Of a DNA stretch of 64,000 nucleotides, positions 11,071 through 24,588 are shown one piece after another. The notes beneath the pieces are model-generated. The model did not search any database. It saw only the letters and a program-made list of their open reading frames with translations, and was not told the origin of the DNA. The DNA comes from Bacteroides zoogleoformans (GTDB taxonomy: Bacteria > Bacteroidota > Bacteroidia > Bacteroidales > Bacteroidaceae), in the NCBI RefSeq assembly GCF_002998435.1, contig NZ_CP027231.1, positions 1,901,001 to 1,965,000 on the forward strand. Direction: 5' to 3'. The translations under genes and the position numbers were made by a program. The stretch's first letter is position 1; every line of letters starts with the position of its first letter.

Positions 11071-11658
11071 ATGGGGAAAAATATCGCTGTTTTGGCATCG
11101 GGAAACGGCACAAATGCCGAGAATATCATCCGTTATTTCCGTGAAAAGAGTTCGGCTCGTGTGGCTTTGGTCTTGACAAACCGGCAGAATGCCTTTGTTC
11201 TGGAACGTGCAAAGTGGCTTGAAGTGCCTTGCGCCTACTTCTCGAAGAGCGATTGGGAGAGTGGAGAAGCGGTTTTAGCGATGCTTCGCCGATATGATAT
11301 AGACTTTGTGGTGCTGGCGGGCTTCTTGGCGCGCGTGCCCGACAATGTTTTGCATGCTTATCCTGATCGAATGATCAATATACATCCGTCACTGCTGCCC
11401 AAGTTCGGAGGAAAGGGTATGTATGGCGACCGAGTGCACGAGGCTGTGATTGCCGCCGGCGAGCAGGAGAGCGGTATCACGATTCATTATACGAACGAGC
11501 GCTACGACGAGGGTGCCGTGATTTGTCAACTGAAGTGTCCCGTGCTGCCCGATGACACACCTGACAGTCTGGCACAGCGCATCCACCAATTAGAGTACGA
11601 GCATTATCCTAAGGCGATAGAGCAACTGTTGCAGGGACATGCTCCTATTTATTTGTAG
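11071..11658 (+). CDS. purN: Phosphoribosylglycinamide formyltransferase
   Basis: A 195-residue GAR transformylase of de novo purine synthesis, using 10-formyl-tetrahydrofolate. Motifs: ASGNGTNAENII (phosphoribosyl binding), INIHPSLLPKFGGKGMYG with catalytic Asn and His, and the ITIHYTNERYDEGAVI block with the catalytic Asp. The open frame runs upstream to 11020, but the ATG at 11071 is chosen because AAAGGAGGG, a near-perfect Shine-Dalgarno sequence uncommon in Bacteroides, ends 4 bases before it and MGKNIAVLASG is the natural family N-terminus. It diverges from acpP. Confidence 0.95.
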   Translation: MGKNIAVLASGNGTNAENIIRYFREKSSARVALVLTNRQNAFVLERAKWLEVPCAYFSKSDWESGEAVLAMLRRYDIDFVVLAGFLARVPDNVLHAYPDRMINIHPSLLPKFGGKGMYGDRVHEAVIAAGEQESGITIHYTNERYDEGAVICQLKCPVLPDDTPDSLAQRIHQLEYEHYPKAIEQLLQGHAPIYL

Positions 11659-12060
11659 AACCGGTTGAGAGGGATGGATTCGTCCAGCTTACGAGGGCCT
11701 ATTTTATAATTGTCCAACGGATTCATTGTGCTGTCGCAAATCTCTATGTATTCCAAGGGAAGTTTTTCCAAAATGGTGTTGTTTTCCACGATGAAAGCGT
11801 AATTCAGATGACTGCCTACGACGTGCCATTCTCGTGAACTTGTATCGGTCAAAAATGCCCATGCCATCCTACAGTATTGATGAAAAAGCGATTGTAGAGG
11901 TCACGAAGCGACATCGACGGATTAGCTGTGATGCAGTCTTGCAAAGTAGAAGTGAACCCTCTCCGCCGATGCCTACTTTTGTATAATTCCCGGTTGCGGT
12001 TTTTGTATTATGGATGACAAATGCGCCATGTGCCTGCCAGAAACCCGGCTATAACAAGGT
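11649..12060 (-). pseudogene. Frame-broken remnant of a legumain-like C13 protease gene
   Basis: No single frame is open, but reading the minus strand in successive frames gives protease-like pieces. A PCYS piece (near 12059-12049) continues after a frame change as GFWQAHGAFVIHNTKTATG...GIGGEG (to about 11953), and after a second change as SFTSTLQDCITANPSM then SLRDLYNRFFINTVG (to a stop near 11849). The intact neighbour has CYSGG followed later by GFTKGFQKAVSDNAYI then SLRDLYYTLARTTTG, in the same order and at similar spacing. The last 72 codons (11649-11867, ending NRFYK) are open but of unknown origin and overlap the purN 3' end by 10 bases. The order and similarity suggest a decayed C13 gene at the end of the MACPF operon. 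Confidence 0.55.
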
Positions 12061-12113
12061 GAGCAGCTTGGCTTATCCCGAACTCAGGTTTTATGATACT
12101 GAGACCTTCCTTC

Positions 12114-12503
12114 TTACTCATACTTGTATGTTTTGATAACCTTATTCGTTACGGTTTCCCCTTCAGTGTTTGATTCTCCCCGATGAATCTCCACATTCCC
12201 TTTCAAAGTGGGATAGGCGGTTCGCTGTCTCTGATATACGGCATCGCAGGCTTTGACTATCTCACTGTCCTTTGTTGTGGTGAGATACAATCCTCCCATC
12301 ATTTTACCGATGGCTTCCGTATATTCCGGAATGGCGACTAATACGCCCATCATGCTGCCAGAAGAGTCTACGAGACTACCTTCCGCAACATAAGTGATGA
12401 TGAGCGTCTCGTCGTCATCACTGGAACAGGAAGTAAAACTGAATGTCACTGTCATCATGCAAACAAGAGCCAAAAGGCTTTTCATTAAATTTTTGATTTT
12501 CAT
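12114..12503 (-). CDS. Small lipoprotein, unknown function
   Basis: A 129-residue lipoprotein with signal peptide and lipobox SFTSC (Cys26), followed at once by SSDDDE, the acidic pattern that marks surface export of Bacteroides lipoproteins. The mature part has no recognised domain; it contains TYVAEGSLVDSSGSMMG, a run of small and hydrophobic residues, and ends in VIKTYKYE. It lies 43 bases downstream of the receptor/C13 protease gene and is the last intact gene of the island. A partner or inhibitor role for the protease is only a guess from position. Confidence 0.65.
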   Translation of the reverse strand: MKIKNLMKSLLALVCMMTVTFSFTSCSSDDDETLIITYVAEGSLVDSSGSMMGVLVAIPEYTEAIGKMMGGLYLTTTKDSEIVKACDAVYQRQRTAYPTLKGNVEIHRGESNTEGETVTNKVIKTYKYE

Positions 12504-12546
12504 ATTCTTTGATTTTAAATGTATTATTATTTTCTATCCTCAACTC

Positions 12547-14709
12547 TTACTCCTTGCCTGAGGTCATGAATTCCCTCATCGAATTATCATACAGGCTGCC
12601 AAAGTTTCTGGCATTATAGACCTTGACATGGGAGCCGGTGGTGGTACGTGCCAGCGTATAATACAGGTCACGCAGGCTGATGTACGCATTGTCGCTGACA
12701 GCTTTCTGAAAGCCCTTGGTAAAACCGTTGGAACGAAAAACGCCAATCGTCTTGCTCCACACATCGGCGTGGCTTGTCTCATAAGGGCTGGCGGCAGTAA
12801 TGAACAACGTGCCGGGTAGCCCCGTACAATATTCACCGAGTCCGCCGCTATAACAGGACTCAATGGCGAAGAGCAGCTTACGGTGGGGTGTATCGGCAAG
12901 CATTTCCTTCATCTGCCGATAAGAGACGGACTTCTGACCGCCAAAATCCATAGAACCCACCATGCCGTGTCCACTCCAAAAAACGAACACATTGTCATCA
13001 CTATCGGCTTCTATCACATGCGGTAAACGCTCGCTGCGCTTGCCCTGCAGAATATCGCCGATATCCTCCGGTGACAAATCTCTCAATTTATAGTCTATGG
13101 CTGAAGCATTATAAAGGTTATCGCCAGTCTCACTGACACGTATAATTCCTTGTTCCGTATTCTTGTCGTTATACGCCAAATCGTCTTCGCAAACAAGCAC
13201 GATGTGATCGTCCGGGTAGCCATGCTGTTTAAGAATTTGATAAATAGCAGACACATCGGCTTGAAACCGGTAATTTCCCCAGCCCTTGGATGCCGCTATC
13301 AGAAGAGCCCATTGGTCATCAAGTTGCGGATAAGTGAAATGACTGCCGTCTGAAGCATTGAGGTTTTGTACATGCGAAGCTTTCCAGTCCCATATACTCT
13401 TTGACGAAGAGGTGCGCTTGCTTCCATCGGTACTCACATATTCTGTCGTAACGAATTTTCGGTTATAAAGGTACCATCGTCTGAAAGTGCTCTCCACGAC
13501 ACAGGAATGCGTCTGCTCGTCAAACGTCCAGGTGCTGGAAGCTCCGTCAATGTCAGGCGTCACTCCTATGGCCAGTTGCCGGAAATTATCCCGCATGTCG
13601 GATGGAAGCCAACTTCCACCCTTGCCGTCACGACCGTCAACGACTTTGAGAACTGCATCGTTCAGTGACTGTTTGGTGTAGTGCGACAAAACGGCTGCGT
13701 AGGCAACCAGGCAGAGCGCATCATAAAATTGTGCTTCACCATTAATCAAGTCCTCACCGAAATGCTGCCTGTAAGCCAGACTAAAGCCTGATTCCGGCAT
13801 GGCGTAAAGGTCAACTCCCTGATAGGCGGTATGTTTCATCTCATTGGCAATGCGGTCGGAAACAAAGGTATCACTACAATATACGTTTGGGATGTAAAGA
13901 GGTTTTCCGTTTTCAAGTGCTTTCAGTTCGGTCTTCATTTTCCCTATTTCATCATCAAAGACCAAGGCCATTTCCACATCAGACGGGTTAAACACCAAAG
14001 CCTTAACACCTTGTCGCCAATCCGTACCACAAAGCTGCCGCACATAACGCCTCACATCATCTGCCGTGTTATAAAGATAAATGCCGTCCACCTTCAACCC
14101 ATACTCTTCGGCAATGAACCCGAACCACTCCTCATAGTCATTGCTCTCATCGGCCGTAAGCAATGAAACTGACTCTTCTGTTACATTGCTGGCAATACCT
14201 GCAATCAGCACTTCCAGCTGGGCGATGTTACTCTCCGCCATGTTCCACACGAAAGCAGTATTGGCAAACTTGCGCTGATATTCCGTTTGTGTAGCCGAGG
14301 GGGTAATCATAGGCTTTTGATAGGCTTTCTTCACATTCAGTTTCTGTGCCATCAAAGTGGCATGCGTGGATGTGGTCGGTCCTACAACGGCAACAATGGT
14401 AGTATCTTCCGCAATCTGCTTCATGCGGTTCTCTATGTCCTCTACATCCTGATTATAGAATTCCAGCTGCAACTCCACCCGATTGGGCATCCCCTGTTGT
14501 GCATTGGCTATATTTTCCAAAGTCCACCGGGCGGTTCGTTTCCATCGCTCCTGCTCATCTTCTCCCATCAGGACTGCCACTTTCAACTTCTTCGTATCAT
14601 GCTGCTGCACGACCGCATCATCATCCGAACAAGCGGTCATGCACCATGCAACAACTAAGCAGAGTGGAAACAGCCATGCATTTAACATTGTGAGTTTATT
14701 TTTGCTCAT
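12547..14709 (-). CDS. Lipoprotein fusing a type-1 periplasmic-binding (receptor) domain to a legumain-like C13 peptidase
   Basis: 720 residues. The signal ends at Cys27 (AWCMTAC), followed by SDDD. Residues about 42-390 look like a type-1 periplasmic-binding or ANF-receptor fold: KLKVAVLMGEDEQERW, VVGPTTSTHATLMAQKL and KPMITPSATQTEYQ are typical blocks. Residues about 463-712 are a caspase-clan (CD) peptidase of the C13/legumain type: WALLIAASKGWGNYRFQADVSAIYQIL, then His581 in WSGHGMVG and Cys619 in AIESCYSGG form the expected His/Cys dyad. Legumain-type enzymes cut after Asn or Asp; specificity here is untested. The combination suggests a ligand-gated surface protease (inference). Its start overlaps the BMP-like gene by 14 bases, implying translational coupling. 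Confidence 0.8.
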   Translation of the reverse strand: MSKNKLTMLNAWLFPLCLVVAWCMTACSDDDAVVQQHDTKKLKVAVLMGEDEQERWKRTARWTLENIANAQQGMPNRVELQLEFYNQDVEDIENRMKQIAEDTTIVAVVGPTTSTHATLMAQKLNVKKAYQKPMITPSATQTEYQRKFANTAFVWNMAESNIAQLEVLIAGIASNVTEESVSLLTADESNDYEEWFGFIAEEYGLKVDGIYLYNTADDVRRYVRQLCGTDWRQGVKALVFNPSDVEMALVFDDEIGKMKTELKALENGKPLYIPNVYCSDTFVSDRIANEMKHTAYQGVDLYAMPESGFSLAYRQHFGEDLINGEAQFYDALCLVAYAAVLSHYTKQSLNDAVLKVVDGRDGKGGSWLPSDMRDNFRQLAIGVTPDIDGASSTWTFDEQTHSCVVESTFRRWYLYNRKFVTTEYVSTDGSKRTSSSKSIWDWKASHVQNLNASDGSHFTYPQLDDQWALLIAASKGWGNYRFQADVSAIYQILKQHGYPDDHIVLVCEDDLAYNDKNTEQGIIRVSETGDNLYNASAIDYKLRDLSPEDIGDILQGKRSERLPHVIEADSDDNVFVFWSGHGMVGSMDFGGQKSVSYRQMKEMLADTPHRKLLFAIESCYSGGLGEYCTGLPGTLFITAASPYETSHADVWSKTIGVFRSNGFTKGFQKAVSDNAYISLRDLYYTLARTTTGSHVKVYNARNFGSLYDNSMREFMTSGKE

Positions 14710-15754
14710 ACTCCGCCTCCTTTCTTTCCGCCTCCTTATAATAGGTGTTATACAATTTCAAAAAAGCGTCATTATCCTCATACCTGCCATCCCATATGTT
14801 CACATTATCCACAAAATTGGGCGTTATCACAATGTCTGTCGCACCTTCGGAAAGTCCGATTCGTCTTGCAGAAGGCCACTCTTTGCCTATAATCCAATCG
14901 TCCAGATATGATTTGATTATATCTCCGATACGAATGACCATGGAGAAAGGGATACGTGTACTTTGCCCGGCCTGATCCACATCCATTCCGATAGACAGAG
15001 CCTGGGTCAAATCATCACCATTAAGGAATTTAGTAATCCCCGTACCGGAACCTCCAAGCAACGGAAATATCATTTCGTCATAATCCCAATTTTGTTCGGC
15101 TCGCCTGTAAATGGTATGGTAGGCGGAGTCCGGCATGGCAAAACCTTCTTCTCCGTCAGCCAGATATTGCAAGGTGAGTTGTCTATTACCACTACTGTGG
15201 GCACTATGGCCGGCACGAAATCCGGCTATCGCATCTTCTAAGGTAGAAAAACCAGGTGCAGCGGCAAGAATGAAAGCATCAAACTCTTTCGACATGGCTC
15301 CTGCCAAATAGGCCGCGCCATAGCGGTTTACCATTACCGTACTCACGCCTTCGATTCGTTCGTTCGACTCTAAAAGCAACACGCGGCTACCCCGCCCGAT
15401 TAAGGTGGGCGGGATACGTTTCAGCAACTCTTCGTATGCCGAATTTCCGGCAACAAGCACCACGGAGTCGGCGGAGGCATTGTGGGAAAGCCACTGCCGG
15501 TACATTGTCTCAGCTTCTGCCATATCTCCGGGCTGTAACAGCTTCACGGGCACGCCACTTTCTTCCATAAAAGCAAAGATACCCTTGGCGGCAACGTCAT
15601 TATAGCCGTTGTCGCCAAGGCCGTTGGGGGAAACCAGCAAAGTGACAGCTGACTGCTGAGATTCTACAATTTCCGGCTCGAATTCATTGTTGTTGCAGGA
15701 TACAAACAATGTCGCCGATAGAGCTATTGTAATAATTTTAATCGCTTGCCTCAT
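14696..15754 (-). CDS. BMP/PnrA-like ligand-binding lipoprotein
   Basis: 352 residues with lipobox ATLFVSC (Cys20). The mature N-terminus VTLLVSPNGLGDNGYNDVAAKGIFAF matches the start of BMP/PnrA/Med-family binding proteins, which often bind nucleosides (given as a landmark, about residues 37-62); VMVNRYGAAYLAGAMSKE fits the usual 'E-x-x-A-G-x-L-A-G' block. No ABC permease or ATPase gene is near, so an uptake role is doubtful and a sensing role more likely. It overlaps the downstream receptor/C13 gene by 14 bases, and lies 22 bases after the preceding lipoprotein gene. Ligand unknown. Confidence 0.7.
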   Translation of the reverse strand: MRQAIKIITIALSATLFVSCNNNEFEPEIVESQQSAVTLLVSPNGLGDNGYNDVAAKGIFAFMEESGVPVKLLQPGDMAEAETMYRQWLSHNASADSVVLVAGNSAYEELLKRIPPTLIGRGSRVLLLESNERIEGVSTVMVNRYGAAYLAGAMSKEFDAFILAAAPGFSTLEDAIAGFRAGHSAHSSGNRQLTLQYLADGEEGFAMPDSAYHTIYRRAEQNWDYDEMIFPLLGGSGTGITKFLNGDDLTQALSIGMDVDQAGQSTRIPFSMVIRIGDIIKSYLDDWIIGKEWPSARRIGLSEGATDIVITPNFVDNVNIWDGRYEDNDAFLKLYNTYYKEAERKEAEYEQK

Positions 15755-15776
15755 ACATACTTCTCATTTACATGAC

Positions 15777-16883
15777 TTAGCTTAAGCCTCGGAATATACA
15801 TTCCCATTCTTCGGGATTAACCTTAAAACTTTGGTCAAAATAGAAGCAATGTGAGCCTTCGGTAGGTACTGGCGTATTCTTATGAGTATAGAACTGCCTC
15901 CAATGACTACATGTCCTATCGGGGTAAAAAGTAGTTCTATATACTGTTACATCATAGCATCTATACGCCCTCCATAAATGATAATCCCAATCGTGGCCTC
16001 TATCAAACGTTATACTACTATCACCGCTTAGATTAAACAATTCGTGGAATAATGTATACCTGTAAGGGTAATACGTGAACTGTTTTCCGAATAAAACAAA
16101 CTCTCTTGTAATAGTGCCTATTTCTTTTAACGCTGTAGCATATTTCGATGGATAGCATTGCATAATGTTTGCCAAACAGTTAAATGCCTGTTCGTCTGCT
16201 GTATTCATCCAAAGGGTAAATTCTCCTTGCCAATGGGTATACTTCCTAAACTTATCTTCCTCACACCCTCCGCCTAAGGTAAGCATAATTCCACGTGAGC
16301 CTTGCGCCTTGTTGACACAAAGATATAGGAGGCCTGTCTTTTTATTCTTCCAGAAGCTCATAAATAGGAAAGGAGAGCCTATATCATTCTCGGGCCAACG
16401 CTCATTCGGTATGAAAACAATACTTGTCAGCGAGTTGCTCAACTCTGGGCAATCCACCTCAATACGCGCCATTTCCTCCTCGTTTTCTGAAATCGAAAAG
16501 GATAATTTCATATCGTTTAGATGCACCTTATTTCCTTCAAAAGTATCGCTCTCGCTTTCGTTGAAAACGGAAACAATACCGTTCCAAGCAGCATGAGCTT
16601 CTGAAATGTTGTTGATACCGACGTAATGAACCGTAGGCTTCGCTTCGTCCAACACCGCGCCGTAACGTGAAGTATAGGCAACTGTTCCGTCCGCAAGGGT
16701 GTCGACAGTACAAAGACTTTTCAACAACGTCTGTCGTTGCAACTTCTGATAAATCTGTGTCACTTCTTTCGTATCGTCGTCGGACGGGATGTCGTCATTA
16801 CTATCACGACAAGCTGTCATCGTGAAGCCAACAAACAGCAAAAGCAGCATCTTAATAAACTGAAGTCTTGAGAACGTTTTCAT
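15777..16883 (-). CDS. Lipoprotein of the MACPF island, unrecognised
   Basis: 368 residues; lipobox TMTAC (Cys25) followed by RDSNDD. No family recognised. The middle has alternating hydrophobic/polar strands (KLSFSISENEEEMARIEV, SIVFIPNERWPENDIG, FLFMSFWKNKKTGLLYLCV) suggesting a beta-rich extracellular domain, and the C-terminal 120 residues are rich in Tyr, Trp, His and Cys (FTYYPYRYTLFHE, RGHDWDYHLWRAYRCYDV). It lies 2 bases from the 784-residue MACPF gene, so the two are almost surely co-translated. A chaperone, immunity or accessory role to the MACPF proteins is a positional guess. Confidence 0.7.
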   Translation of the reverse strand: MKTFSRLQFIKMLLLLFVGFTMTACRDSNDDIPSDDDTKEVTQIYQKLQRQTLLKSLCTVDTLADGTVAYTSRYGAVLDEAKPTVHYVGINNISEAHAAWNGIVSVFNESESDTFEGNKVHLNDMKLSFSISENEEEMARIEVDCPELSNSLTSIVFIPNERWPENDIGSPFLFMSFWKNKKTGLLYLCVNKAQGSRGIMLTLGGGCEEDKFRKYTHWQGEFTLWMNTADEQAFNCLANIMQCYPSKYATALKEIGTITREFVLFGKQFTYYPYRYTLFHELFNLSGDSSITFDRGHDWDYHLWRAYRCYDVTVYRTTFYPDRTCSHWRQFYTHKNTPVPTEGSHCFYFDQSFKVNPEEWECIFRGLS

Positions 16884-16885
16884 AA

Positions 16886-19240
16886 CTATTGATATTTATA
16901 ATGTGATGAACGATAGGGGCGTACCGGATACCAATTATCACGTTTGCGTTCTGTATTACACAGTTGCAAGGTGTAATTGGGAGATATAACCAATACACTT
17001 CCCGATAAACTATTCTCTTTCGATGCTATAAAACATTGTTGATTATTGTATCTTAATTTGTATCCTCCATCCGAGAATTTCTTGCCATTATTCAAATCAT
17101 CATAACGACCATAGTACCCGACAAATTGTGCATCAAAGCCTGATTGTTGTGATGGCAAGAGGGCTTTGCAATGCCCGCCGATAAACTTTTGCAACTTTCT
17201 CAAATCTGACAGTCGTGGTACGTACCAATGGATACGATTGCCATCACTATCCGTCTTGTCGTCGAACAGGCCAGGGAAAGAACTGTGGAAACCATAGCTG
17301 TTACCATAGAAAATGTTAGCATAAAGCATACCATTGATAATATCATTGTAAATCGTAAAATCACCCTCAGGATTATTGATGTTTATAGGCTCGCCAAACT
17401 GCATATCATCCTTGATATTGCAACGCGTCCAATAGCCGGAACCGATTTTGACTACGGGGTATCGATTACCGCCATGAAAATCCATAAAATGATCTTTCGT
17501 AGTAATTCTTCCTGCCCGTAACGGAACGCCTTGATTTTCAGCGAAGAGATTGCCGTGCAAATGGTATAATGTATTCAGTTTATCCGATGATCCATAACCT
17601 TCAATCGGATTGACGTAGACATCGGCATCTGAAAAGAAAAGATAAGCAGGGCGGTATTCTCCATCACCCGGAAACAGTCCCATCGTGATGCGTGTAACGC
17701 CATTGACGATGGGGTAAACCACCGTGATACGTTTGTCGGAACGGACAGTGGGCACATACTCGTTGCAAATCTCAGCAATGGGGACGTTATTAAAGCTCAG
17801 CACACGCACAAGCGATGTTGTGTTTTTTGAGTCGAACTCCATTATGTCCTTGGTGAGCGGCAAGAGGTAATTATCGATACCCAGTTCCGCATCACTGAAT
17901 ACATTCCTCTGTTCATTGGCCATAGAAGTAACTATGGACAGAATTTCGTTGCTTACGGCCTTGTTGGGGAACAGTTCCCAAATCGGGATAAAGGTGAAAT
18001 CCACGGCATCAAGAACATCATCCGTACGAGCTGTAATACTTCCTGACCAATCATTTAATAACGAACTTGACAGCGTATTCGTCCCGGTATCAGAAAGTTG
18101 CGCTACATTGCTCTCCAGTGCTTTTCTGGAACTTTCCGACCCGCCGTAGATATTGATGGCACCTTTTCCCGAAAAAGAGCTATTAACACTTTTCATCACA
18201 TCAGAAGACGATTTGCCTCCGGTTAAGGTCTTGAATACCGTTTCCGTTGTTTCCTCAAGTGTCGTTACAAGGTTACGCGAATAGGTCACGGCAAGGTCGA
18301 TGGCACCTCCCAAGGATGTCTGTACGATGACGTGGGTGCCATATTGTTCGAGCATTTTTCTGATGAGACCCTCCCTGACACTTCCCGAGGCTTTACTTAT
18401 TTCTTTGTAAAGATCATAGAATCCTTTGGAGAAAGGGAGCTTTCCCGACTTTATGATGTCGGGATTGTGGCAGATGTATTTCAATGCCCCTACGTCCATA
18501 GATTTTGAACCCACCACTCGCACCATACGCGCATAGCCGTAATATTGTTCGTTGATAGCCTCCCGGGATATGTGCTTGTAACGCTCAACAGTCTTCTTGA
18601 ACCCAAGCACGTTGGTGGTCTTTGAGGTCTTTTTCGTGAGCTTGCTCTGCATTTCCGACAGTGAATAAGCCGAATAAAACTCATAATACATTTCGCCTCG
18701 CACGCCTTCCTGTATGGAAATGAAGGTACTGTCACTATTAAATTCGCGAAGCCTGGCCTCACTTATCACGCTTCCACGGATACTTGTAGAACATTTATAG
18801 TCGTCGAAACAGGAAAAGCCTCGACCCACCCTATAAAGGGAAGACGCATCGTCATTATCCCCGAGCTTTCCTTTTTGAACCAGTTCCACGACCGAGATCG
18901 ATCCGTCGGTGCGGTTGGTCAGCGTCAGTTTCGCCAATCTCTCCTCCACATCGGTATTTGCCTCGGGCAGCACATCGAACAGGCCATCGGAAGGTAAGGT
19001 GTCCGACTTGATGGTCAGCCACTCCGCATCCGTAGATATCCCGATAACATTTCCCGGGGCGAGTCCTTCTGTTTCTAAACCTATCGTGTGGTAACGCCGC
19101 TCCGCTTCCAGCGTCTCGCCGGTCGTCACAACTGCCTTCCACGCCGTTTGGTTGATATCGGGTAATATCTCATCATCTTTGCTGCATGATGCCAGAAAGC
19201 AGAGTGCTAATAATATGAATAATATTATTCGGTCACTCAT
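16886..19240 (-). CDS. MACPF (perforin-like) lipoprotein with BACON-like and Fib_succ-type domains
   Basis: 784 residues. Lipobox LASC (Cys19) is followed by SKDDE. Residues about 30-125 resemble a BACON-type beta-sandwich (DAEWLTIKSDTL ... SVVELVQKG). Residues about 135-450 form a MACPF domain: the signature YGTHVIVQTSLGG spans residues 300-312, and a conserved block FIPIWELF closes the domain as in the two neighbours. Residues about 600-780 (GSGYWTRCNI ... YVPRLSDLRKLQKFIGG) resemble the Fibrobacter succinogenes major paralogous domain. MACPF proteins form pores; several Bacteroidales members (BSAPs) kill related bacteria. It overlaps the upstream MACPF gene by 8 bases. Confidence 0.85.
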   Translation of the reverse strand: MSDRIILFILLALCFLASCSKDDEILPDINQTAWKAVVTTGETLEAERRYHTIGLETEGLAPGNVIGISTDAEWLTIKSDTLPSDGLFDVLPEANTDVEERLAKLTLTNRTDGSISVVELVQKGKLGDNDDASSLYRVGRGFSCFDDYKCSTSIRGSVISEARLREFNSDSTFISIQEGVRGEMYYEFYSAYSLSEMQSKLTKKTSKTTNVLGFKKTVERYKHISREAINEQYYGYARMVRVVGSKSMDVGALKYICHNPDIIKSGKLPFSKGFYDLYKEISKASGSVREGLIRKMLEQYGTHVIVQTSLGGAIDLAVTYSRNLVTTLEETTETVFKTLTGGKSSSDVMKSVNSSFSGKGAINIYGGSESSRKALESNVAQLSDTGTNTLSSSLLNDWSGSITARTDDVLDAVDFTFIPIWELFPNKAVSNEILSIVTSMANEQRNVFSDAELGIDNYLLPLTKDIMEFDSKNTTSLVRVLSFNNVPIAEICNEYVPTVRSDKRITVVYPIVNGVTRITMGLFPGDGEYRPAYLFFSDADVYVNPIEGYGSSDKLNTLYHLHGNLFAENQGVPLRAGRITTKDHFMDFHGGNRYPVVKIGSGYWTRCNIKDDMQFGEPININNPEGDFTIYNDIINGMLYANIFYGNSYGFHSSFPGLFDDKTDSDGNRIHWYVPRLSDLRKLQKFIGGHCKALLPSQQSGFDAQFVGYYGRYDDLNNGKKFSDGGYKLRYNNQQCFIASKENSLSGSVLVISPNYTLQLCNTERKRDNWYPVRPYRSSHYKYQ

Positions 19241-20990
19241 AATATTTCAACTCGTTTGGGTTATATATATACACATAGTCATCATTCCTCTTCATTGTTT
19301 TCAATGTGTTGTCATACGACCAACCCGGAATGCTTGTTATTGGAACTTTGTCCCGGGTAGCAGGGAGGAAGAAGTTCCTCTTTTCCTTTTTGACAAAATA
19401 GGTTGTCGCGCCGGTGTTGTATGAACCATCGACATTGAAAGGTTTGTCGGTTTCCAAATAGGGAACGGGATGTGCCGGACTATAGGTTATGTTGTTGTAG
19501 GCGGTAAATGAAGGTACGCCTGCCGTTACATAAATCGTTTCATTGTTATTTGCCTCGCCTTTGTCAGTCACAATGCAGTCGTCACCCTTCCAAGCCACAT
19601 TATAAACACGGCCATTATGCCGGCACAACCCGTTATACAACTGGATGCGACCTTCGTAGATGGGATACACCACGCGTACATGCTGCAACGGGTCGATGGT
19701 TTCCACACGTTCCGTACAAATGGTGGCCACATGCCGACCGGCATACACCAGATTGACGACATCGGGCGAAGCGCACGACTTCTCGCTGGTTTTGCCGATC
19801 ACATATTTAATGTTCTCAGGGTTATAGGGGAATGAAACGTTGATAAAGTTGCGGTTGCCAAGGAGGTCGATGAGGTCTTGCATGGAATCATTGATGATGC
19901 TGCGGATTCGCTTTTTTGCCGTAGGATCGTTCACGAATTTATGGATAGGTGTGAAGTCCATGCGGATGACAGAAGTGGCGTCTTTTTCAAAATCATCCGG
20001 GTTGAACACGACACTTGACTGCCATTGGGTGAGGGCGGAAGGAGTCACCTTGTTTACACGATAATTGTTCATATTGGTCAGTTCGTCAAGATATCTCACA
20101 TTACCACCCAAAACTTTGATATAGCATTTGGAATCCTCCAAATACTTATATCCTTCGGTCGAACTGCCACCTTCCCACGAAGCTTTGAACATACCGTTCA
20201 ACACGTCTGCCGAAAGAGCCGCTTCCGTATTCTCAACAGTCTTGTAACGCTTGGCATCTAATTGCACCAACACTCTCAGTGAACCCCCTACCTCTGCGTA
20301 TGTCACCACATGGGTTCCATAGGTATGGATAAAGGAGTCCACACAAGCCAAAAAGTTCTTTTCCGAAGCCTCGGCTACCTGTCTTACCGCATCGCGGAAC
20401 GAAGCGGTAAGCACAGTGGGGTGCGTCTTGGCCAATTCTATGATGGCATCCGGGTATATTCTGTAACTACCACTTAATATTTTACTTTGGGCATCCACGA
20501 TGTAACAATCCGTTGTCCCGTCTTCGAAAATGCTGCATTCATATCTGGCATTACCTCCGGCAACAAGAGTGATGCTACCTTCCGCATCTGCCTTCAAGTT
20601 GGAATTCTGGACGTATTGGGTAAAGGAATGATGTACATTCCCCTCCATTGTAACCTTCTGCTCTGTATTGGCAGTGTATAGATAGAACTGTGAAATATCT
20701 GCAAGGCGATCCAGCTCAGCGCGGTTGACCACCTGACATCGTATATCGTCTAAAGAATAAGACCCTCCTGTAGTTGCATTGTAGCTATACCCCACGGCAT
20801 GATCCCGAAGAAAGTAGCGCTGACTCTGCGCCCGTGTCCATACTTCCGGTGAATGCCAGACGGCATTTCCGGAAGTATCATCACGCATATCGGCTATTTT
20901 TTCAAAATCGTCACTGCACGCTGTCATGTTACTCAACATGACAGCGGCTGTAAGATAATAGATATAATAGATAAAGAATGGTCTTTTCAT
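19233..20990 (-). CDS. MACPF (perforin-like) lipoprotein
   Basis: 585 residues; lipobox SNMTAC (Cys25) followed by SDDFE. The MACPF domain spans roughly residues 60-380, with the signature TYGTHVVTYAEVGGSL at 223-238 and a closing block DFTPIHKF aligned with PIWELF of the next gene. The C-terminal 180 residues carry VVYPIYEGRIQLYNG, which matches VVYPIVNGVTRITMG in the 784-residue neighbour, so the two share a second domain after MACPF. The proteins are paralogues rather than recent duplicates. It sits 11 bases after the first MACPF gene. Confidence 0.83.
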   Translation of the reverse strand: MKRPFFIYYIYYLTAAVMLSNMTACSDDFEKIADMRDDTSGNAVWHSPEVWTRAQSQRYFLRDHAVGYSYNATTGGSYSLDDIRCQVVNRAELDRLADISQFYLYTANTEQKVTMEGNVHHSFTQYVQNSNLKADAEGSITLVAGGNARYECSIFEDGTTDCYIVDAQSKILSGSYRIYPDAIIELAKTHPTVLTASFRDAVRQVAEASEKNFLACVDSFIHTYGTHVVTYAEVGGSLRVLVQLDAKRYKTVENTEAALSADVLNGMFKASWEGGSSTEGYKYLEDSKCYIKVLGGNVRYLDELTNMNNYRVNKVTPSALTQWQSSVVFNPDDFEKDATSVIRMDFTPIHKFVNDPTAKKRIRSIINDSMQDLIDLLGNRNFINVSFPYNPENIKYVIGKTSEKSCASPDVVNLVYAGRHVATICTERVETIDPLQHVRVVYPIYEGRIQLYNGLCRHNGRVYNVAWKGDDCIVTDKGEANNNETIYVTAGVPSFTAYNNITYSPAHPVPYLETDKPFNVDGSYNTGATTYFVKKEKRNFFLPATRDKVPITSIPGWSYDNTLKTMKRNDDYVYIYNPNELKYYE

Positions 20991-21001
20991 AAAAAACCTG
21001 T

Positions 21002-22480
21002 TTATTTATCAGAGACATCGGCATCCACAACGCTGTTGTCGATAATATCCATTTTGTCCTTATAATTCTTCTTAATCCATGCCTTTACAGCACTACGCAC
21101 TTTGCCCTGGAAGAAATACCATATCGGATAAATCTTCAAGCGTGTATATGAAAGGGTAGCCGGATTATTTGCATCCAAACTGGCTATCCAAGCATCCATC
21201 TTGTCATGTAAGTCGTTATACACTTTATCGTTGTCACCTTTCTTTCGTTTGATAGAAAGGGCACTGCTCACATTGTCTTGGGCAACCTTTGCACCTCCGG
21301 CGATGTTGTACTTAAAGGCACTGCTCTCAAATATTTTGATACCTTCTTTCTTATAGCCTACCTCAACTTTTCCTTCTATTTGCAGTAAACCGATATTGAC
21401 AGCAGCATTGACATGAGCGGTATCCACGTGCATAATCTCGGCAATGGAATCACGGTTGTATTTCATCCACAAGGATACACTACCTCCCAAATCGCAGCCG
21501 GAAATGACCACTGGGCCATATTCGTCCACAAGGTCTTCCATCGCATTATTGAAGTCGTCGTTGTTGTTTTTTGTCTGAGCTTCCTCTACCGTTTTCTTGG
21601 CATCAATAAATCCGGGTGTCAGCAGGGAGCGTTTCAATAGCTGTTCACTGTCGGCAGGGTCTTTCGATGCCGATGCGTCGTTGTAGAGGGCTATCAATGA
21701 AGGTACGTCGGCAGAAGTGGAGGCAATGTTGTACGTAGCTCCATATCGATATTCTGTCTTGTAGTGGTTCTTGCTTTCATCGCCATGATAGGCGCCACCG
21801 ATGTTCAGTTTGAAATCACCATAGTTGATGTCGAACGACAGCGCGACACCCAGCGAATCCTTTTTGGTATCTACACTGTCTATCACAGCTCCCTGCGCAC
21901 CGGCCTTAGCTTGTTTGTTGTAGGTGAAATAAGCACTATACTCTGCGTTGTTCAACTGTTGCAGTTTGTTGAGAGCCTTCAGATTGATGACGTTATTCTT
22001 GGTTGTAAGCCTGCCAAGGTTAAGTCCCATGCCCACACCCTTTGTTGCGGCGATCTTTATATAGTCCGCAGCTTCACCATCATTGGAAACGGTTTGCCCA
22101 TTGTAAGTAGGAACTTGTGTCACCGCAACCTTTTTCACGATGTTGCCCGCAGTGATGGTCAGGGTGGTGCTTCGTCCTGCCGACGATCCGAAATTGGCAT
22201 CAATGTTTACGGGCACATTTTGGTCTCCTTGACCGGACTTTACCGGAACATACACCCAATGTGAAGCATCTTTGGGGACATCAATAGTCCAATTGTCGTT
22301 GGAAGAGATGTTGAGCGTGGTTATCTTGCCATCAATCTCCGCTTCGATTCCTTCTGCAAGGACATCTTCTCCTATCTCAAGCCGGGTTGTAAACTCATCG
22401 TCAGCGCATGAGATGATGCCGCATGACATAAACATGATCATTCCAATTATTGCCAAATCTTTGTTGAACATTGCCTTCAT
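21002..22480 (-). CDS. Divergent MACPF-like lipoprotein with BACON-like domain
   Basis: 492 residues; lipobox GIISC (Cys25) followed by ADDEF. Residues about 30-125 look like a BACON-type domain (TTLNISSNDNWTIDV ... VKKVAVTQVP). The remaining part aligns by landmarks with MACPF: YGPVVISGCDLGGSVSLW at 321-338 stands where neighbours have YGTHV...GG, and KIYPIWYFF (449-457) matches the domain-closing PIW block. The signature His is missing (Thr-His replaced by Pro-Val) and the segments between are rich in Lys, Ala and Asp. There is no C-terminal domain after MACPF. It is the first gene of the operon, 160 bases or so downstream of the predicted transcription start. Confidence 0.72.
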   Translation of the reverse strand: MKAMFNKDLAIIGMIMFMSCGIISCADDEFTTRLEIGEDVLAEGIEAEIDGKITTLNISSNDNWTIDVPKDASHWVYVPVKSGQGDQNVPVNIDANFGSSAGRSTTLTITAGNIVKKVAVTQVPTYNGQTVSNDGEAADYIKIAATKGVGMGLNLGRLTTKNNVINLKALNKLQQLNNAEYSAYFTYNKQAKAGAQGAVIDSVDTKKDSLGVALSFDINYGDFKLNIGGAYHGDESKNHYKTEYRYGATYNIASTSADVPSLIALYNDASASKDPADSEQLLKRSLLTPGFIDAKKTVEEAQTKNNNDDFNNAMEDLVDEYGPVVISGCDLGGSVSLWMKYNRDSIAEIMHVDTAHVNAAVNIGLLQIEGKVEVGYKKEGIKIFESSAFKYNIAGGAKVAQDNVSSALSIKRKKGDNDKVYNDLHDKMDAWIASLDANNPATLSYTRLKIYPIWYFFQGKVRSAVKAWIKKNYKDKMDIIDNSVVDADVSDK

Positions 22481-22646
22481 TTTTTAGTACTTTAGTTATA
22501 AAATTTATGTGAGTTCGGAATAAGATAAATCTTTTAAAAGTTGGTAATCCCGTTAGTTTTTCAGGAACTTCCCTAAATTTTCCATTGTTTTTTTACTCTG
22601 TTTTAAAGTCCGGTTTATATCCCTCCAAAAAAATCGTTTCAGAAGC

Positions 22647-22678
22647 CAAAATTAGGTAAATGTTGCGATGAAATCAAA
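22647..22678 (-). promoter_or_regulatory. MACPF operon promoter
   Basis: On the minus strand TTTG (complement of 22675-22678) is followed after exactly 20 bases by TAATTTTG (complement of 22647-22654), a full match to the Bacteroides pattern. It reads toward the first MACPF gene. The paired 22-base repeats lie 20 bases upstream of its -33 box. Confidence 0.65.
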
Positions 22679-22697
22679 GAAAAGAGGAGATGTCATA

Positions 22698-22741
22698 GTG
22701 ACAAATTCCCGAAAAGGAGGTGACAAAATCCCTAAAAAGGC
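22698..22741. promoter_or_regulatory. Tandem 22-base direct repeat, candidate operator
   Basis: Two adjacent 22-base units start at 22698 and 22720. Both begin GTGACAAA, share TCCC at positions 10-13 and AAAA at 15-18; 17 of 22 positions agree. Spacing of two helical turns and location immediately upstream of the -33 box are what AraC-family activators normally use. The neighbouring AraC-type regulator is the obvious candidate binder, but this is inference. Confidence 0.6.
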
Positions 22742-22879
22742 ATAAAAGAAGAAGGGGGAGAGGTGGAATATTGAGAAAGTGCGGCTGTATGTGGCAGCAC
22801 GGCTGTTTGACTATACCTTGGTCGAGCCGTGGTAATGTCTTGGCCGGGAAATAATCAAACTGTCATTGATGAAGTGAGC

Positions 22880-24538
22880 TTATCCGTTCTTCTTTTGTCC
22901 CAATCGCCTGTATTCAGTCGGAGTAAGGTTGTATTTCTTTTTAAACTGACGATAGAAAGTACGAAGGGTGCTGAAACCGGATTGGGTAGCGATGTACTCC
23001 AATACATAGTCGGTCTGATCCAACAGCTTGCAGGCATGTTGCAACCGCAGGTTGGTTACAATGTCGTTCAGCGAAGTATGATAGTTCTCCATCAGTTGTT
23101 TATCAATGGCATACCGTTTCATCTGCAATTGGATCTCAAGGCAGTCGGTGTTGAAGTCCTGAGATAAGAAGTTGTCGTTCTCGGAAAGTAAAGTTTCTAT
23201 TTGTTCTTGTAAGTTCTCTTCCGTTTTAGGGTTGTCGGCCCGTTTGGCCGGAGTTTGTTGTACCGCCAACCGTACATATTTATATAGGTATTGGTTGTCG
23301 CGAAGCCGACGGTAGTGGAAATAAATCATGGTGACGATGATAATGATAAGAACTATAGCCACACCTGTGGCCATCATCTTATAGACACGTTGCTTGTAAT
23401 ACGAAACGCGCAGGGAGTTGTTCTCGCTTAGCACATCGTAGAACTCCATGTTTTCGCGGTGTATGAAGTCGTTGATGCGTTTCACCTCACACGTCATAGC
23501 TTCGGCTTTTACCTTTTCACCTCGGCGGATGTAGATTTGCAGCAGACTGTTGCAGACAGAGAGCAGCTCAACGGATGGAGTAGTGAGATTATTGCGATAA
23601 AAATCCTCACTCAAGGACAGGATATTTCTCGGGATGTTGTTTGCCTCGACATAGATACTTAAAAGTGACCCGAGCGCATTTGTCATGGGAGGGTATTTAT
23701 GGAACAACGAGTCTGCTTCGGCGGCAGCTTTCAATGCTTCGTCTTTTCGTCCGCACTTGACAAGAGCATGTCCGAGAGTGAGATTAAAGTACATGCGGTG
23801 AATATCATAGCCTGCATGGTCGGTAGCCCCGTCACCGCCTCTCTGTTGTTCTCTGTTGAGCTCTTGAATGGCTTCGGGAATATAGGCGGCAGCCTTATCG
23901 GGTTTGCCTCCGTCAATGTAGATGTCGGCAAGTAATAAGTCGAAAGAGTGTCGCATGATGGCACAGTTGCCGCGGACATTCTCATTAGGATCATCGGCAA
24001 ATAAGTTCAGTAGAGCCCGCGCCTCATGCCATGAGTGCAGGGCCTTATCTGTTTGTCCGCTCTTCGATAACGCTCTTGTCTTATAGTACTCACATAGAAG
24101 AGTATAGTAGGCTTTGATTGCACGTTCGCGAGGTTGTCCGTCGATTATCTTCTTCGTTTCTTGCTTTATTTGGCCTACCAATCTCGCCAACTGTTCATAT
24201 TGTCCGAGCTTTTCTGCAAGCTGACATTGAATGTCCAGCCCATCCAAGATGTTTCCTTGATCCTTGCTGCCGAGTTGCTGCATGGCAAGGGCGTGACGCA
24301 GGGCATCGGCATAAAGATTGTTACTCAGGCAGACAAACCCTGCCACTCGCTCATATCGCATGCGGCTTGTATGTTTCCAGCCCTCCCGCTCCAGCCGTTT
24401 TCGTGCAGGTTCCAACAAACGGTAGGCACGTTGCGGCTCTCGGACGTATAGTTTGTCTATATAGTCGATGTCGAGGGTGTCTGCGGCATGGCAATATACC
24501 GTAAACAAGCCTAATAAGCAAATGATGAATGATTTCAT
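22880..24538 (-). CDS. Membrane-anchored TPR sensor / AraC-type transcription regulator
   Basis: 552 residues. A signal or N-terminal anchor (MKSFIICLLGLFTVYCHA), then an extracytoplasmic region of about 360 residues with TPR-like helical pairs (for example AIKAYYTLLCEYYKTRALSKSGQTDKAL). One transmembrane helix at about 388-408 (MATGVAIVLIIIIVTMIYF) is followed by a linker and an AraC-type double helix-turn-helix at about 450-548, ending in the family signature FSTLRTFYRQFKKKYNLTPTEYR (landmark). Such Bacteroidota proteins couple an envelope signal directly to DNA binding. It is upstream of, and on the same strand as, the MACPF operon and likely controls it. A Bacteroides promoter precedes it at 24557-24588. 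Confidence 0.85.
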   Translation of the reverse strand: MKSFIICLLGLFTVYCHAADTLDIDYIDKLYVREPQRAYRLLEPARKRLEREGWKHTSRMRYERVAGFVCLSNNLYADALRHALAMQQLGSKDQGNILDGLDIQCQLAEKLGQYEQLARLVGQIKQETKKIIDGQPRERAIKAYYTLLCEYYKTRALSKSGQTDKALHSWHEARALLNLFADDPNENVRGNCAIMRHSFDLLLADIYIDGGKPDKAAAYIPEAIQELNREQQRGGDGATDHAGYDIHRMYFNLTLGHALVKCGRKDEALKAAAEADSLFHKYPPMTNALGSLLSIYVEANNIPRNILSLSEDFYRNNLTTPSVELLSVCNSLLQIYIRRGEKVKAEAMTCEVKRINDFIHRENMEFYDVLSENNSLRVSYYKQRVYKMMATGVAIVLIIIIVTMIYFHYRRLRDNQYLYKYVRLAVQQTPAKRADNPKTEENLQEQIETLLSENDNFLSQDFNTDCLEIQLQMKRYAIDKQLMENYHTSLNDIVTNLRLQHACKLLDQTDYVLEYIATQSGFSTLRTFYRQFKKKYNLTPTEYRRLGQKKNG

Positions 24539-24556
24539 AGTTATCTAAAATGGCTG

Positions 24557-24588
24557 CAAAAATAATGAGTTCGATATAATTCTACAAA
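24557..24588 (-). promoter_or_regulatory. Promoter of the TPR-AraC regulator gene
   Basis: Minus strand TTTG (complement of 24585-24588), 20 bases, TATTTTTG (complement of 24557-24564): a full match to the Bacteroides consensus. The ATG follows within about 20 bases of the -7 box, so the leader is very short. Confidence 0.65.

Follow-up and report, generated by a model that had tools for sequence, protein, structure and literature searches.

Proteolytic activation of pore-forming proteins by C11 proteases is already known in Bacteroidota. For the CDCL toxin pair, the part of the source consulted describes that both components must be cut for pore formation and that killing required a surface C11 protease of the target cell; fragipain is likewise named there as a C11 protease (PMC11169675). 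For the BSAP toxins, the consulted text reports BACON N-termini on 16% of the representatives, calls their role in killing unknown and names C11, not C13, proteases (PMC12853789). In this work, we analysed a 64,000-nucleotide stretch of the Bacteroides zoogleoformans genome (NZ_CP027231.1, positions 1,901,001 to 1,965,000; hereafter the window), which carries a minus-strand operon of seven predicted lipoprotein genes. Three of them encode perforin-like MACPF proteins, and one encodes a legumain-like C13 protease fused to a ligand-binding receptor domain. The operon belongs to a real, conserved system. Judged from gene order and protein comparison, the core unit of this system is a BMP-like lipoprotein together with the receptor-C13 fusion, accompanied by apparently swappable, often BACON-tagged cargo. 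In the literature searched, by title and the start of the abstract, no description of a system of MACPF and C13 proteins was found.

The seven open reading frames (ORFs) at window positions 12114-22480 are separated by gaps of 2-43 nucleotides or overlap by 8 and 14, and they follow the order MAC492, MAC585, MAC784, P368, BMP, receptor-C13 fusion and S129 (Table 1). A lipobox was found by pattern in all seven, which confirms the lipoprotein operon that an earlier note on this DNA had proposed from the letters alone. The three MACPF proteins that it had named all match PF01823 above the Pfam cut-off, and its BMP-like protein was recovered as well (Pfam Bmp, 27 bits). The C13 protease and the receptor part of the fusion also held: the Peptidase_C13 match reached 152.2 bits against a cut-off of 22.8, and the fold tests returned a legumain-like C13 half, with His581 and Cys619, and a LivJ/LivK-type binding-protein half. 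The MACPF trio and the fusion represent the sole MACPF matches and the sole C13 match in the 3.36 Mb genome. Among 84 C13 sequences, the catalytic His and Cys are kept in 82; at the S1-pocket positions, Arg44 is present in 84/84 and Glu187 is Glu in 73 and Asp in 10. The receptor-C13 family comprises 219 homologues, and among the 120 listed the few names given were all "hypothetical protein".

The gene set recurs across Bacteroidales. One scan provided 18 loci (from the complete Prevotella communis genome, ruminant Prevotella, Bacteroidaceae and two Alistipes), which with 67 added loci and the window made 86; seven duplicates were dropped and 79 loci were examined. A C13 ORF was present in 78 of these (L115 had none by ORF calling), with 80 C13 anchors in total. 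By ORF calling, the next gene upstream of C13 belongs to the BMP family in 69 of the 80 anchors, and tblastn recovered BMP for six further ones, one of them as a cut piece. By both methods BMP was missing at L036, L106, L126, L130 (where the contig end cuts the locus) and L147. When proteins were grouped into single-linkage BLAST clusters, a MACPF-cluster ORF was found near C13 in 30 of the 78 loci, measuring merely 112 and 80 residues in L051 and L138, and the other 48 have no protein of this cluster near by. Proteins of the P368 cluster were found at 27 loci, of which 14 have a MACPF-cluster protein and 13 have none. Some MACPF-free runs contain BMP and C13 alone, and at many of these loci the run includes further lipoproteins. 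One such MACPF-free cargo, c5, consists of lipoproteins of about 750 residues in 10 loci (L102, L107, L108, L109, L112, L114, L116, L119, L120 and L129), with no Pfam match in the one scanned.

Further cargo was seen at loci without MACPF. The c6 proteins (DUF4421 in one scanned) stand directly ahead of BMP-C13 in L131-L137 and L139, all from one genus, and BspA-type leucine-rich repeat proteins lie near BMP-C13 at L117:203-2851 and L121:11879-13798, of which one carries a C10 protease domain. Two tandem BMP-C13 modules are present at each of L113 and L124. At L036:8343-10556, a C13 fusion without the catalytic His and Cys stands beside a TonB receptor gene, with no BMP gene found.

By comparing 399 genomes of the family (C13 at E 1e-20, MACPF at E 1e-3), we found both proteins in 24, MACPF alone in 15, C13 alone in 44 and neither in 316 (Fisher p 2.9e-11; related genomes are counted as independent in this table and in that of the order given below). 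Of the 24 genomes with both, 20 have MACPF and C13 on one contig and within 10 kb of each other; G640, G672 and G710 have them on different contigs, those of C13 being short or cut, and in G729 they are truly apart. The earlier note had treated MACPF and C13 as one unit. This stands as far as the linkage is concerned where both occur, but not as a description of the core, which is BMP and receptor-C13, a MACPF match being absent in 44 of the 68 C13 genomes. The core of that note was right, and the emphasis belongs on the BMP protein and the receptor-legumain with swappable cargo.

A quick tree of 68 MACPF-cluster proteins contained clades A (15 rows), B (17) and C (18), each with 100% SH-aLRT support, to which MAC492, MAC585 and MAC784 belong, respectively; the MAC492 of the window is on a long branch and its placement is unsure. 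One member each of the three clades was present in 15 loci, all with BMP and C13, which represents the conserved neighbourhood implied by the earlier note. A second, separate MACPF trio accompanies C13 in L037, L099 and L100, and L101 has two second-trio members in the tree and three linked MACPF matches in its genome. A third type with a FISUMP-like C-terminus was identified in L034 (two proteins), L042, L043, L046 and L053, and L113 groups with these. The FISUMP model scored above its cut-off in two of six third-type proteins scanned, and the C-terminal domain of MAC784 has a mere trace of this similarity (E 0.11). Lipoboxes are present in all three MACPFs of the window and in 59 of 69 MACPF-cluster proteins, and at least two acidic residues follow the lipobox Cys in 49 of the 69, both counted by pattern and without a genome background. 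At the trio loci, the median pairwise identity of C13 was 0.38, that of BMP 0.28 and that of P368 0.21, with clades A, B and C at 0.23, 0.30 and 0.30, respectively. The rank correlations of the pairwise identities of C13 with those of A, B and C were 0.81, 0.65 and 0.78, uncorrected for the species tree.

Legumains cleave after Asn, and a conserved Asn was found in the linker between the BACON-like and MACPF domains of the large MACPF proteins. Numbered from the last Gln (Q) of the BACON-like domain, position Q+9 is Asn in 23/25 proteins, namely 13/15 of clade C, 4/4 of the large subunit of the second trio (E) and 6/6 of the FISUMP type. This count excludes the clade C proteins of L055 and L045, whose N-terminus is cut off, that of L097, which is near-identical to L098, and the N-terminally cut second FISUMP-type protein of L034. 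The runner-up linker position is conserved in 14/25, Ala, Gly or Ser comes next after this Asn in 22/23, and MAC784 and all 25 other listed homologues have an Asn somewhere in the linker. As a control, generic BACON domains were taken from eight C13-free Bacteroidaceae genomes with 112 matches, of which the 30 with loci were read; Asn was at Q+9 in 2/29 and at Q+7 in 1/29, one of the 30 having no Gln at the domain end. By profile, BACON had no match in any ORF of 18 family loci with MACPF away from C13, which hold 13 MACPF-like ORFs by profile (ten belong to C13-free genomes). It was found in 1 of 23 order-wide MACPF loci; the genomes of these loci have no strong C13 fusion, but weak C13 matches occur in some (G165 is in both control sets). 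BACON is thus rare in MACPFs away from C13. In the exception, L207 from G008, several BACON repeats precede MACPF; the genome has no C13 match, and this BACON-MACPF protein is without Asn at Q+9. Furthermore, comparison of profiles shows a BACON-like stretch (77-95%) in the C13-linked c5 cargo, whose Asn is at Q+9 in 9/10 proteins and at Q+11 in the tenth, although several of these are close relatives and L102 has Leu for the Gln. Because c5 has the Asn and both nearly all generic BACONs and the C13-free L207 are without it, the linker Asn, as aligned here, tracks C13 linkage and not simply the joining of BACON to MACPF, though the tails may share ancestry.

We hypothesize that the core is a surface processing pair made up of the BMP-like lipoprotein and a lipoprotein protease, in which C13 is fused to a LivJ-type ligand-binding domain. 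This pair would travel with varied surface-lipoprotein cargo, which here would be a three-subunit MACPF set. The protease would cut the large subunit after the conserved linker Asn, which separates its lipid-anchored BACON-like part from its MACPF domain, and the cleaved subunit would be released or freed to assemble with the other two MACPFs. The assembled proteins would form a pore on a neighbouring, competing cell, and the binding domains would gate or localise the protease. The genes, their domains, the catalytic pair, the linkage, the co-inheritance of three MACPF clades and the Asn of the C13-linked cargo are observed. Surface exposure, cleavage at the Asn, ligand gating, pore formation and the antibacterial target are steps that we infer, and the conserved Asn fits protease control of the large MACPF. 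The proposal that BACON-tagged cargo is clipped by a surface legumain that senses a ligand, and that in this operon the cut releases or activates a perforin-like weapon of several subunits, seems to us evenly balanced between right and wrong. More tentatively, and with doubt somewhat outweighing confidence, the BACON-like domain, the acidic stretch and the Asn-Ala/Gly/Ser may together be a processing tag read by the ligand-gated legumain (BMP and LivJ-C13), so that a single module would mature different surface weapons and trigger a three-subunit complement-like MACPF pore.

Several observations weigh against this proposal, and those on the linker come first. MAC784 of the window and its sister L041 have the Asn at Q+7, not Q+9. 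The Q+9 Asn is present in 4/14 clade A proteins (L097 excluded) and 0/4 of clade D, clade F has Asn at Q+6 in 3/3, and clade B is without BACON. Many large subunits match BACON weakly, with MAC784 below the Pfam cut-off, and Pfam at E 0.1 lists no BACON in L043 and L046, so the Q anchor of these two comes from the alignment alone. Shared ancestry of the BACON tail may be an alternative source of the common Asn, which could also be a structural residue. If the Asn served as a structural cap in this subtype of BACON, and the C13 linkage reflected hitch-hiking of adjacent accessory genes, the Thr or Ala at the same position in some clade A loci and the finding of a single BACON-MACPF protein without C13 would both be accommodated, as would possible common ancestry of the tails. 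We consider this improbable, since the rest of the linker is poorly conserved (14/25 versus 23/25), the Asn is absent in 27/29 generic BACONs, 10/14 clade A and 4/4 clade D proteins, and it is kept in the unrelated c5 family.

The remaining points against a protease-controlled MACPF weapon concern the protease and its distribution. Legumain S1 Asp231 is Asn in 70/84 sequences and Asp in 12, so the P1 preference may differ from that of legumain. MACPF is not the sole purpose of the protease, as so many C13 genomes are without a MACPF match, and 15/39 MACPF genomes are without a C13 of this type. In 393 genomes of the order, with C13 counted at E 1e-40, both were present in 4, MACPF alone in 20, C13 alone in 3 and neither in 366, which is a weaker association (p 3e-4). 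C11 proteases are present in 23/24 genomes having both, the window genome included, so the known activator type is already on hand; and no immunity protein was identified. C13 may instead be a general surface shedder of BACON-tagged lipoproteins with no special role in pores, the MACPFs being an ordinary BSAP-like toxin that uses it. Such a role would explain the 48/78 loci without a MACPF-cluster protein near C13, the other lipoproteins that share its run at many loci and the Asn tag in c5; we rate it as unlikely, because MACPF and C13 are tightly linked where both are present, the divergence of the MACPF trio parallels that of C13 (with the correlations uncorrected for the species tree, as above) and the large subunit retains the Asn, which most of the other subunits lack. 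The island could also be a nutrient or signal capture unit, in which the binding proteins and MACPF-fold adhesins would hold a ligand or target surface and form no pore. Two binding-protein folds are present, the MACPF signature of MAC492 is degenerate, and some MACPF proteins are non-lytic. This explanation appears quite improbable to us, as the ORF list has no transporter gene within the operon and the MACPFs diverge more than the protease (0.23 to 0.30 versus 0.38), though BMP does so equally (0.28).

The earlier note had also counted a membrane regulator of its own as part of the system, and this claim was not borne out: no close counterpart of the TPR-AraC regulator was found at the other loci, many of which end at contig edges, and AraC-like genes of other kinds lie near some of them. 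Bacteroides-type promoters have the consensus TTTG ... TAnnTTTG. Scanning the window for TTTG-N17-21-TAnnTTTG gave four sites against 0.99 expected, with four reached in 2 of 100 shuffles, and two of the four sites stand just ahead of the regulator and of MAC492. The operon and the regulator are probably separate transcripts because each has its own promoter-like site. The fossil C13 piece at 11855-11956 is nearest to the C13 genes of the MACPF-free loci L131-L139, and it suggests the trace of a lost second BMP-C13 module. A fragipain-type C11 protease is encoded in the same genome far from the island (G000:C1:3236023-3236889).

Table 1. Features of the island and its surroundings in window coordinates.
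Feature	Position	Strand	Basis or remark
Bacteroides-type promoter-like site (TTTG-N20-TAnnTTTG), ahead of regulator gene	24557..24588	(-)	pattern scan
TPR - transmembrane - AraC (HTH_18) regulator, 552 aa	22880..24538	(-)	HTH_18 56.2 bits, cut-off 33.6; TPR weak
Bacteroides-type promoter-like site, 167 nt ahead of the operon's first start codon	22647..22678	(-)	pattern scan
MAC492, lipoprotein: BACON (25.7 bits, cut-off 25) and degenerate MACPF; clade A	21002..22480	(-)	Pfam, tree
MAC585, lipoprotein: MACPF, without BACON; clade B	19233..20990	(-)	Pfam, tree
MAC784, lipoprotein: BACON-like (14.7 bits, cut-off 25), MACPF and C-terminal domain; clade C	16886..19240	(-)	Pfam, tree
Asn129 codon of MAC784, BACON-MACPF linker, candidate legumain cleavage point	18854..18856	(-)	alignment
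MACPF domain match within MAC784	17957..18451	(-)	profile match
P368, lipoprotein, no known fold assigned; least conserved member; 98% identity to a recorded Bacteroides zoogleoformans protein	15777..16883	(-)	
BMP/PnrA-like lipoprotein, conserved C13 partner	14696..15754	(-)	Bmp 27 bits
Receptor-C13 fusion lipoprotein, 720 aa	12547..14709	(-)	
LivJ/LivK-type binding-protein domain, residues 41-425	13435..14589	(-)	
Legumain-like C13 protease domain, residues 466-703, His581 and Cys619	12601..13314	(-)	
S129, small lipoprotein, final operon gene	12114..12503	(-)	weak relatives near C13 in L042, L043
Fossil C-terminal piece of a second C13 gene	11855..11956	(-)	72% identical across 32 residues (tblastn, E 4e-13)

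What is new here is the conserved linker Asn, as aligned in the large MACPFs and in the unrelated C13-linked c5 cargo. If the proposed mechanism is true, the linkage of a receptor-fused legumain and the prediction of a single cut site would make the switch testable with two purified proteins. The mechanism would point to what BACON may do and to a function for the large, conserved receptor-C13 family. It would also mean that bacteria deploy, on their own surface, parts of the type used in animal immunity, namely legumain and perforin, in a protease cascade of receptor, legumain and perforins.

The closest likeness is to the CDCL toxins, which in the consulted part of PMC11169675 are MACPF/CDC-superfamily lipoproteins with adjacent subunits and a clan CD activator, where the locus described here has a clan CD neighbour. 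Adjacent subunit genes are found here too, A, B and C standing together in 15 loci. However, the protease is C13 and not C11, is encoded in the same operon and is fused to a ligand-binding domain, and the candidate site is after Asn, not Arg/Lys; the thiol-activated cytolysin model PF01289 had no match in the three MACPFs at E up to 1. The BSAPs share PF01823 lipoproteins, a BACON N-terminal subclass and a C-terminal domain presumed to choose the target, as given in the consulted text of PMC12853789, whereas here a trio is organised with BMP-C13. Among the NCBIfam BSAP models, the sole match was BSAP5a on MAC585, at 26.5 bits against a cut-off of 500. Fab1 (PMC8406203) and BcpT (PMC9308784) are alike in being antibacterial toxins activated by a Bacteroidales cysteine protease, but the consulted sections of those papers present no comparable linkage of protease and toxin genes. 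Fragipain, as described in the source consulted, differs in serving other substrates too and in being conserved in strains without BFT. Unlike legumain, the C13 protein has no C-terminal prodomain and instead has a lipid-anchored LivJ-type domain on its N-terminal side, and S1 Asp231 is replaced by Asn in most C13 proteins here. PADLOC returned 0 families at E 0.01 for six proteins of the island. The bacterial gasdermin-protease defence is alike in that the protease adjoins the pore former; given the lipoprotein signals found by pattern on all parts, the system described here would act outside the cell, unlike gasdermin defence.

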